Origin: an uncultured SAR116 cluster alpha proteobacterium
Lineage (GTDB): Bacteria; Pseudomonadota; Alphaproteobacteria; Puniceispirillales; Marisalimonadaceae
Assembly: GCA_902619805.1 (NCBI GenBank)
Contig: CACNGC010000002.1
Coordinates: 202,678 to 266,677 of the forward strand
Direction of reading: 5' to 3'
DNA: 64,000 nucleotides
How positions within the stretch are numbered: position 1 is the stretch's first letter; every line of letters starts with the position of its first letter. Of this stretch, positions 2,237 to 64,000 are shown piece after piece. A model generated the notes under the pieces. The model did not search any database. It was given only the letters and a program-made list of their open reading frames with translations, and was not told the origin of the DNA. The position numbers and the translations under genes are program-made.

Positions 2237-3469
2237 TTAATTTAAGACATTATCCTTTCTCATGATATGGTCTGAAATTTGTTGAGAAGTGAATGCGCTT
2301 AGTGTCCATCCAAGGTGTCCGTGACCAGTGTTGTAAAATACACCGGGTAACTTTCCACTTCCAACTTTTGGTACCATACTTGGTGTCATAGGTCTTAAAC
2401 CAGCCCATGGAATAGCGTGTTCGGTAGACACTTTAGGAAAAAGCTTATTACACCACTTAATAAGAGGATTAATTCTATCAGCCCTTATGTCTTTGTTATA
2501 ACCATTAAACTCAGCGGTACCAGCAACTCTAAATCTATTTTTTCCTAATCTACTCGAAACAATTTTAGCTTTATCATCTAGTAAAGACACATAAGGAGCA
2601 TTTTCTATGCTTTCTTTATCATCAAGCAATATTGTAATAGAATACCCTTTTACAGGATATATATTGATTTTGTCACCCAAGTTATTTGCTATAAATTTAC
2701 TGTTAACACCAGCACAAACAACAATCCCGTCATAATTTTGTTTCTGAATTTCATTTGATTGATTAAAGGTAAGTATTGGTTGTTTTTTGTCATGATTAAC
2801 ATCAACAATTTCTGTTTCGTAAAAAAATTTTACACCTTTCCTTTCACAAGCATCAGCAAGTAATTTTGTAAATTTATGAATGTCACCAGACATATCGCTT
2901 TTTGTATAAAATCCACCAATAAAATTCTTAAGATTTAGAGTTGGTTCAATAGACAACATTTCATCTATAGAAATTTCTTTTCTATCTAATCCAGCCTCCA
3001 AAAGCCATTTATTAACTTCTCTACCATGTTTTAATGATGCATCACACTCACATAAATGCATGATACCTTTCTCTTCAAGATCTAGTTCAATATTTTCTTT
3101 TTTTAGTATCCTTTTGAACTCATCTCTACTATTGATAGCCATTTTAGCGGTTAAAATTGTATTTTTTTTGTGGTTTGGAATATTACATATAAAATCCATT
3201 ATCCAGCTAATTTTATGAAAGTTTAGTTTTGGGTTGAATAGCAAAGGTGCATCTTTTTTTAACATCCATTGAATACCTTTTCCTATTGTTGACCAACTAT
3301 TCCATACTTCAGCGTTGCAAGCAGATAATTGACCACCATTTGCGAAACTTGTTTCCATAGCTGCATAACGGTTTTTATCAAAAACAGATACAATATACCC
3401 TCTTTCTAAGAGTTGGTAAGCAGTGGTTATCCCAGTTATGCCTGCTCCTACGATTGCTATATTTTTCAT
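2237..3469 (-). CDS. dadA: D-amino-acid dehydrogenase (small subunit)-like FAD oxidoreductase
   Basis: N-terminal dinucleotide-binding MKNIAIVGAGITGITTAYQLLERGY, SFANGGQLSACNAEVWN, C-term GLRPMTPSMVPKVG..FYNTGHGHLGWTLS. Confidence 0.85.
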   Translation of the reverse strand: MKNIAIVGAGITGITTAYQLLERGYIVSVFDKNRYAAMETSFANGGQLSACNAEVWNSWSTIGKGIQWMLKKDAPLLFNPKLNFHKISWIMDFICNIPNHKKNTILTAKMAINSRDEFKRILKKENIELDLEEKGIMHLCECDASLKHGREVNKWLLEAGLDRKEISIDEMLSIEPTLNLKNFIGGFYTKSDMSGDIHKFTKLLADACERKGVKFFYETEIVDVNHDKKQPILTFNQSNEIQKQNYDGIVVCAGVNSKFIANNLGDKINIYPVKGYSITILLDDKESIENAPYVSLLDDKAKIVSSRLGKNRFRVAGTAEFNGYNKDIRADRINPLIKWCNKLFPKVSTEHAIPWAGLRPMTPSMVPKVGSGKLPGVFYNTGHGHLGWTLSAFTSQQISDHIMRKDNVLN

Positions 3470-3502
3470 AATAAACTCCGTGACAAAGTTTTTGTAAATT
3501 AA

Positions 3503-3675
3503 ATATTACCCCATCTGTCACGGAACCTGAAAGATTGACCAAAATTGGCTTACCCCTTCGGTGGATGATAAAATCATCACTCTCCAGATTATCAACTTTT
3601 TGTGTTTCGGGTGCCTGAGAGTTTCCGGGGTGGTTGCTCCTTCGGCGGTTATAAATAACACTCTCACACAAAAAG
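3503..3675 (-). promoter_or_regulatory. Tandem glycine riboswitch (two aptamers) upstream of dadA-like gene
   Basis: Reverse complement reads GTGTGAGAGTG..CCGCCGAAGGAGCAA..CCCCGGAAACTCTCAGGCACCC then CTGGAGAGTG..CCACCGAAGGGGTAA..TCTTTCAGGTTCCGTGACAGATGGGG: two copies of the gcvT-type core. Confidence 0.92.
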
Positions 3676-3731
3676 ACTTTGATAAACTTAGACTAACAAT
3701 GTTTTAAAATAAAAACAATAGTGTAAACTCT

Positions 3732-4670
3732 TTAAATTTTTATTTGCTTTTTTGAAACCATAAATACACCTAGACATGAAAGAGACAAACCCAAAAAGTC
3801 AAAAGAAGTGAATGTTTCTTCTAATATTAAAAAAGCAAGTAAAGCAGATATAGGAGGTACTAAAAAAAATAAAGTAGCTGTTTCATTTGCTTTATTCTTT
3901 GCTAGTAAATACATCAAAATTAAAAATGCACCAAGTGAAACAGCAAATATTTGCCATGACATGGCTAAAATAAAATCATTTGAAAAATTTATAAAAAATT
4001 TTTCAAAGCAAAGTGCTAATACAAGATGAAAAATTGCGGCGCTTAATGCTTGCAAAAAATTATTTCCAGACAAAGACAAATCGGATCCTATTTTTTTTTG
4101 CCAGATAATACCTAGTGAAGAAGAAACTAGTCCAACTATTCCAGCAAAAAAGGCAACTATGGTCAGACCATCAATTAGATCAGAAATTATAATTATCAAT
4201 GCACCACTAAATCCTAAAATAATTCCAAGCCACTGAAATTTAGTTAAAGTTTCATTCAAATAAATTTTTGCTAGAAATGATGTTAAAATAGGTTGTAATG
4301 ATACCATTAACGCTATAAGGGTAGCTGATATACCTCTAGATAAAGCAAAAAAAACTCCACCTAAATATAAGCCATGAAATAATAACCCGCTAATTGATGC
4401 ATTTTTGAAAGCCTTAAAAGAAATATATTTGTCTTTTGAAAAAAAAATAAAAAATAGGAAAAATAATGAAGCAACTATCCCAAATCTTATTGAAAGCGAA
4501 AGAAAAGGTGGGGCATTATCAACTATTATTTTGCTAGTAATAAATGCTGAAGACCAGAGTAATACAAAAATTATTGGTATTATATTATTAATATTAATAA
4601 CTTTCTTATTTGAAAAACAATTATAATAAATTATCTTGGATTTTCGATTGGACCTTTTTCTTCTAACCAT
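3732..4670 (-). CDS. EamA/DMT-family transporter
   Basis: About 10 hydrophobic helices; FVLLWSSAFITSKIIVDNAPPFLSLSIRF, PILTSFLAKIYLNETLTKFQWLGIILGFSG; N-terminal start uncertain. Confidence 0.85.
   Translation of the reverse strand: MVRRKRSNRKSKIIYYNCFSNKKVININNIIPIIFVLLWSSAFITSKIIVDNAPPFLSLSIRFGIVASLFFLFFIFFSKDKYISFKAFKNASISGLLFHGLYLGGVFFALSRGISATLIALMVSLQPILTSFLAKIYLNETLTKFQWLGIILGFSGALIIIISDLIDGLTIVAFFAGIVGLVSSSLGIIWQKKIGSDLSLSGNNFLQALSAAIFHLVLALCFEKFFINFSNDFILAMSWQIFAVSLGAFLILMYLLAKNKANETATLFFLVPPISALLAFLILEETFTSFDFLGLSLSCLGVFMVSKKQIKI

Positions 4671-63195: not shown

Positions 63196-64000
<805 letters not shown>

Follow-up and report, generated by a model that had tools for sequence, protein, structure and literature searches.

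A tandem glycine riboswitch with a covarying anti-Shine-Dalgarno helix precedes a PRK12409-type gene, probably encoding a glycine dehydrogenase/oxidase, in a SAR116 family that lacks glycine cleavage

What does a glycine riboswitch regulate when it stands ahead of a gene annotated as a D-amino acid dehydrogenase? Published surveys associate glycine riboswitches with gcv genes, glcB, serC, sdaA, serA and transporters (PMC2211319, PMC3766115, PMC12452182). A search of the main text of papers returned none that mentions both "glycine riboswitch" and "D-amino acid dehydrogenase"; an earlier record of this target, in the supplement of a regulon survey for instance, is possible. The locus considered here lies on the minus strand of a 64,000-nucleotide stretch of DNA (the window), flanked by an EamA-type transporter gene (3732-4670) and an FAD oxidoreductase gene (2237-3469), in an organism whose named relatives place it in the SAR116 cluster. 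We consider it probable that the element is a glycine-ON translational switch on a PRK12409-type glycine dehydrogenase/oxidase, which would replace glycine cleavage in the host family. The RNA itself is ordinary; the interest resides in a riboswitch target shared across a whole protein family, and in the re-annotation which that target implies.

The identity of the RNA, originally proposed from inspection of the sequence, was borne out by a profile run. Computation establishes both aptamers of the tandem element (window 3505-3678, minus strand), each exceeding the RF00504 cut-off of 32 bits: the scores are 62.3 bits for aptamer 1 (3593-3678, minus strand) and, across the whole model, 56.9 bits for aptamer 2 (3505-3597, minus strand), and this pair of sites is the only one detected genome-wide. 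The layout is that of a tandem riboswitch with a leader-linker P0 helix, in which the 5' leader strand (3679-3688, minus strand) pairs with the linker strand (3586-3595, minus strand) as an inverted repeat (I3) that is 90% complementary and paired in the minimum free energy fold. Three inverted repeats of at least 9 nt occur in 3440-3700, namely P0, P1 of aptamer 1 (3666-3675/3596-3605) and the helix over the Shine-Dalgarno (SD) sequence discussed below. Judged by these features the RNA is a typical representative of the known glycine riboswitch class, and presumably binds glycine. It resembles RF00504 elements before gcvT or gcvTHP in its two aptamers, P0 leader-linker pairing and single platform, and such elements precede gcvT in sister SAR116 genomes; it differs from them in its target, here a PRK12409 FAD oxidoreductase, and in residing in a family without the glycine cleavage system.

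The regulated gene (2237-3469, minus strand) is a single gene, the end of which adjoins a convergent gyrB-like ORF, and it encodes an FAD oxidoreductase of 410 aa (Pfam DAO). The original prediction of a DadA-like target can be stated more narrowly: the protein is a member of the NCBIfam family PRK12409 (NF009074, "D-amino acid dehydrogenase"), at 631 bits against a cut-off of 494, and is not a classical DadA (PRK00711), for which it scores 312.4 bits against a cut-off of 383. Among solved structures, its nearest matches, whether ranked on sequence or on the fold of an AlphaFold model (mean pLDDT 82.7, weak around residues 31-80), are ThiO glycine oxidases (TIGR02352; PDB 7cyx, 4ysh, 1ng3), and sarcosine oxidases and related enzymes give TM-scores similar to those of the glycine oxidases. 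At 129.2 bits against a cut-off of 250.8, however, the protein is not an equivalog of ThiO. A second DadA-like protein (G000:C12:10716-11909, minus strand; L179 1669-2949), 27% identical to the riboswitch-controlled one, exceeds no family cut-off.

The distribution of riboswitch and gene was followed in relatives drawn from 101 genomes. Order-wide, 62 riboswitch loci examined sit ahead of an ortholog of this DadA-like protein (50-100% identity). In the host family the riboswitch was found in 53 of 58 genomes, adjoining a PRK12409-type dadA gene in every one of the 53: at 52 loci it precedes dadA, and in G020 it stands at the start of a contig and dadA begins 35 nt downstream. The five family genomes without the riboswitch are also missing the dadA ortholog. 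GcvP was found in none of the 58 genomes, the weak matches being partial and located in proteins of about 600 aa, and the incompleteness of many of these genomes does not account for as many as 58 independent absences. The gene-family link and the absence of GcvP and GcvT are in this sense established by computation. The sole GcvT-like protein of G000, a genome without the glycine cleavage system, is a GcvT-family protein (G000:C2:95741-96670, minus strand; L178 655-1755) that fits the DMSP demethylase DmdA best, at 385 bits, below the cut-off of 410.

Elsewhere in the order, 43 genomes divide into three with both the DadA ortholog and GcvP, 10 with DadA alone, 19 with GcvP alone and 11 with neither (Fisher P = 0.02, uncorrected for relatedness). 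In relatives with GcvP, the riboswitch lies ahead of gcvT in 10 of the 10 tested. One genome with both proteins (G098) carries one riboswitch on each gene; in two others (G060, G084) no riboswitch was found in the stretches examined around gcvP, and in G081 the gene is present with the riboswitch undetected.

The association is also seen outside SAR116. Among the best 80 matches of a genome scan, 32 PRK12409-like loci are from other organisms, including Pseudooctadecabacter, Phyllobacterium, Ancylobacter, Bosea, Comamonas and Nitrincola; they were selected by protein similarity, the riboswitch not being a criterion, and RF00504 lies just upstream of 30. Five further PRK12409 loci contribute four with the riboswitch (three plasmid copies and G245) and one without (a broken copy in G259), so that 34 of 37 PRK12409-type genes in non-SAR116 alpha-, beta- and gammaproteobacteria, 32 of them from the best 80 matches, are preceded by the element. 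In classical DadA genes it was found at none of 15 loci, which argues that the riboswitch goes specifically with the PRK12409 family. The broader proposition, that the PRK12409 family as a whole is a glycine-riboswitch-controlled glycine dehydrogenase in alpha-, beta- and gammaproteobacteria, and that the resulting glyoxylate route takes the place of glycine cleavage in one SAR116 family, seems to us evenly poised between true and false.

Several features of these loci merit separate mention. The broken gene in G259 (G259:C4:29083-30234; L187) has an internal stop and is perhaps a decaying copy. PRK12409-like genes occur in 65 plasmid records; on the conjugative plasmid pBVIE01 of Burkholderia vietnamiensis (L182 2207-5374) the glycine riboswitch and PRK12409-like gene have an alanine racemase gene two genes downstream. 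In Comamonas (L155 4059-4122, L168 4081-4144, L171 4059-4122) an nhaA-I RNA motif follows the PRK12409 gene at a distance of about 1.4 kb.

In the physiology that we propose, the PRK12409-type enzyme would, as its most likely step, oxidize glycine to glyoxylate and ammonia; glyoxylate would be converted to malate through malate synthase G; and this glycine-to-glyoxylate route would substitute, in the host SAR116 family, for the absent glycine cleavage system. Malate synthase G is present in the genome, which makes the passage from glycine through glyoxylate to malate possible. A glycine dehydrogenase/oxidase is favored because of the riboswitch regulation, the phylogenetic pattern, the nearest structures, malate synthase G and one experimental precedent in Cupriavidus necator, whose DadA-annotated enzyme DadA6 is a glycine oxidase according to PMC11879842 and PMC12421819. 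Unlike the gene described here, DadA6 is discussed in the relevant text of those papers with no mention of a riboswitch. To see whether DadA6 is a PRK12409 protein, a published check primer was sought across one family (401 genomes); every match had two mismatches, and most were a single recurring, unrelated sequence. Of the substrates surmised in the original prediction (glycine, sarcosine or a related amino acid), glycine gains strong support from context, namely from the riboswitch on PRK12409 genes across Proteobacteria and from a host family devoid of the glycine cleavage system.

A close parallel is the SAR11 riboswitch before the malate synthase gene glcB (PMC2211319, PMC5069720), which shares with the present case a setting in marine alphaproteobacteria and a logic leading from glycine to glyoxylate to malate; it differs in that the step controlled here would be the one forming glyoxylate, rather than malate synthase, and in that a single riboswitch is found in this genome. 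If the proposed reading is correct, the glycine switch sits one step before the step controlled in SAR11, and would explain glycine breakdown in abundant surface-ocean bacteria that have no glycine cleavage system. It would further mean that the widely used annotation "D-amino acid dehydrogenase" misnames, or describes only in part, an entire protein family, the substrate being revealed by the regulation.

That annotation is itself one of the grounds for a serious rival as to the substrate, in which the enzyme acts as a dehydrogenase of D-alanine, or of D-amino acids broadly, and glycine serves only as a signal, for example of excess glycine disturbing the use of D-alanine in cell-wall synthesis. 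Such a role would accord with the alanine racemase gene lying two genes from the Burkholderia plasmid copy, and with glycine toxicity via peptidoglycan, a subject cited in the reference list of PMC6944388. It is harder to reconcile with the lack of the riboswitch on all 15 classical DadA genes, with a link at its strongest in genomes that have no glycine cleavage system, with the position of glycine oxidases as the nearest structures, and with the report of C. necator DadA6 as a glycine oxidase (PMC11879842). We consider D-alanine the less likely substrate on this evidence, and retain glycine as the preferred one.

How glycine would act on this gene is suggested by the region between aptamer 2 and the start codon, for which the coordinates first proposed are all correct. 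TCCGTGACA (3516-3524) is complementary to TGTCACGGA (3477-3485) at a spacing of 30 nt, and the GGAG SD (3476-3479) lies 6 nt ahead of the ATG at 3469. The 9-bp helix originally described, thought to cover most of the GGAG, is real and longer than was claimed: the full pairing is of 12 bp with G.U ends, joining the anti-SD strand UUCCGUGACAGA (3514-3525, minus strand) to the SD strand UUUGUCACGGAG (3476-3487, minus strand) and covering the whole GGAG, with an RNAduplex energy of -17.9 kcal/mol (z = -6.3 versus shuffled partners). Its upstream strand was correctly assigned to the 3' part of aptamer 2, where it comprises the J3a/1 junction and most of the 3' strand of P1 (CAGAU, 3513-3517, minus strand), the latter being the partner of AUCUG at 3585-3589. 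Because the anti-SD strand shares bases with this P1 strand, aptamer closure and SD blocking are mutually exclusive. Folding the whole leader to minimum free energy gives the SD-blocked form at -62.8 kcal/mol, versus -50.1 kcal/mol once P1 of aptamer 2 is forced, in models that include neither ligand nor tertiary contacts. With the OFF fold favored in such models by about 12.7 kcal/mol, switching has to take place during transcription or be driven strongly by the ligand.

Covariation of this helix in orthologous leaders, the test named with the original prediction, is present, and like the helix itself is established by computation. Over 36 distinct host-family leaders, 92.2% of cells are paired, versus 37-47% with one strand slid, and compensatory alternation among G-C, A-U and G-U is evident; one helix pair among these leaders is represented by GC in 22, AU in 9 and GU in 3. 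The covariation score was matched by none of 500 shuffles, a control that counts sequences rather than independent events, and double changes are carried by few helix pairs. Since the shuffle control leaves relatedness in, two additional tests were added. When SD strands were swapped between leaders with differing anti-SD strands, the duplexes were destabilized in 812 of 873 leader pairs; in a permutation test of 15 representative leaders, the observed sum was reached in 0 of 20000 permutations. Order-wide, in a set of 47 distinct leaders, the two positions ahead of GACAG vary, with G-C, A-U and G-U at -2 and U-A, A-U and U-G at -1, in a table whose pairs were picked by RNAduplex and are hence biased towards pairing. 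The preference for a leader's own partner is also found in 15 distinct leaders from outside the order (other alpha-, beta- and gammaproteobacteria; 2 of 20000 permutations). Exceptions exist: the leaders of G098, G087, G088 and G090 have no clear anti-SD helix of this type, and at the loci of the last three (L072, L073 and L065 for G087, G088 and G090), which retain riboswitch and dadA, the SD may be blocked otherwise. An SD-sequestering platform, in the form of a covarying helix that covers the SD and excludes aptamer closure, is well supported by these comparisons.

According to the model, in the absence of glycine the J3a/1 and P1 portion on the 3' side of aptamer 2 would pair over 12 bp with the SD region and block ribosome entry, and with glycine aptamer 2 would retain the anti-SD strand and release the SD. 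No intrinsic terminator was found in the leader, and the translational ON switch originally predicted is therefore the best reading, its direction being suggested by the SD-blocking helix and by modeled accessibility. When the segment downstream of the aptamer was folded alone, holding the anti-SD strand reduced the modeled energy needed to open the SD, on average, from 6.8 to 2.4 kcal/mol, with a lower cost in 59 of 60 leaders. In the leader of this locus the modeled cost falls only from 7.9 to 5.2 kcal/mol because AAACUUUG-UCA-CGGAGUUU can form a local hairpin, which ribosomes may melt. An earlier, cruder model of SD accessibility, in which the aptamer could refold, was less consistent, showing a clear rise in 15 of 60 leaders. 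A promoter scan revealed no informative site. Retention of the anti-SD pairing through compensatory changes provides a clean ON-switch model that is testable by a simple reporter.

The expression platforms of glycine riboswitches vary among lineages (PMC6944388), and the local SD hairpin persists in the ligand-bound model of this leader; both would be compatible with a platform that is an OFF switch, or that acts on transcription instead of freeing the SD. Such a platform is improbable, given a helix that masks the SD and is incompatible with P1 of aptamer 2, the failure to find a terminator, the cheaper opening of the SD with the strand held in nearly all leaders, and a catabolic target that suits ON logic. 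The translational ON switch is thus the reading that we adopt for this platform.

It is highly improbable that the aptamers sense something else, as in the glycine-GGAnGA type, with the target acting on that ligand (for example sarcosine). In favor of such a variant, the RF03166 match spans both aptamers at 67.5 bits and J3a/1 deviates from the consensus (AGGUUCCGUGACAG); against it, the score falls below the RF03166 cut-off of 110, each aptamer singly exceeds that of RF00504, and the same RNA class precedes gcvT in sister genomes. At the far end of the window (63196-64000, plus strand) lies the 5' part of a 16S rRNA gene, which runs past the window end.
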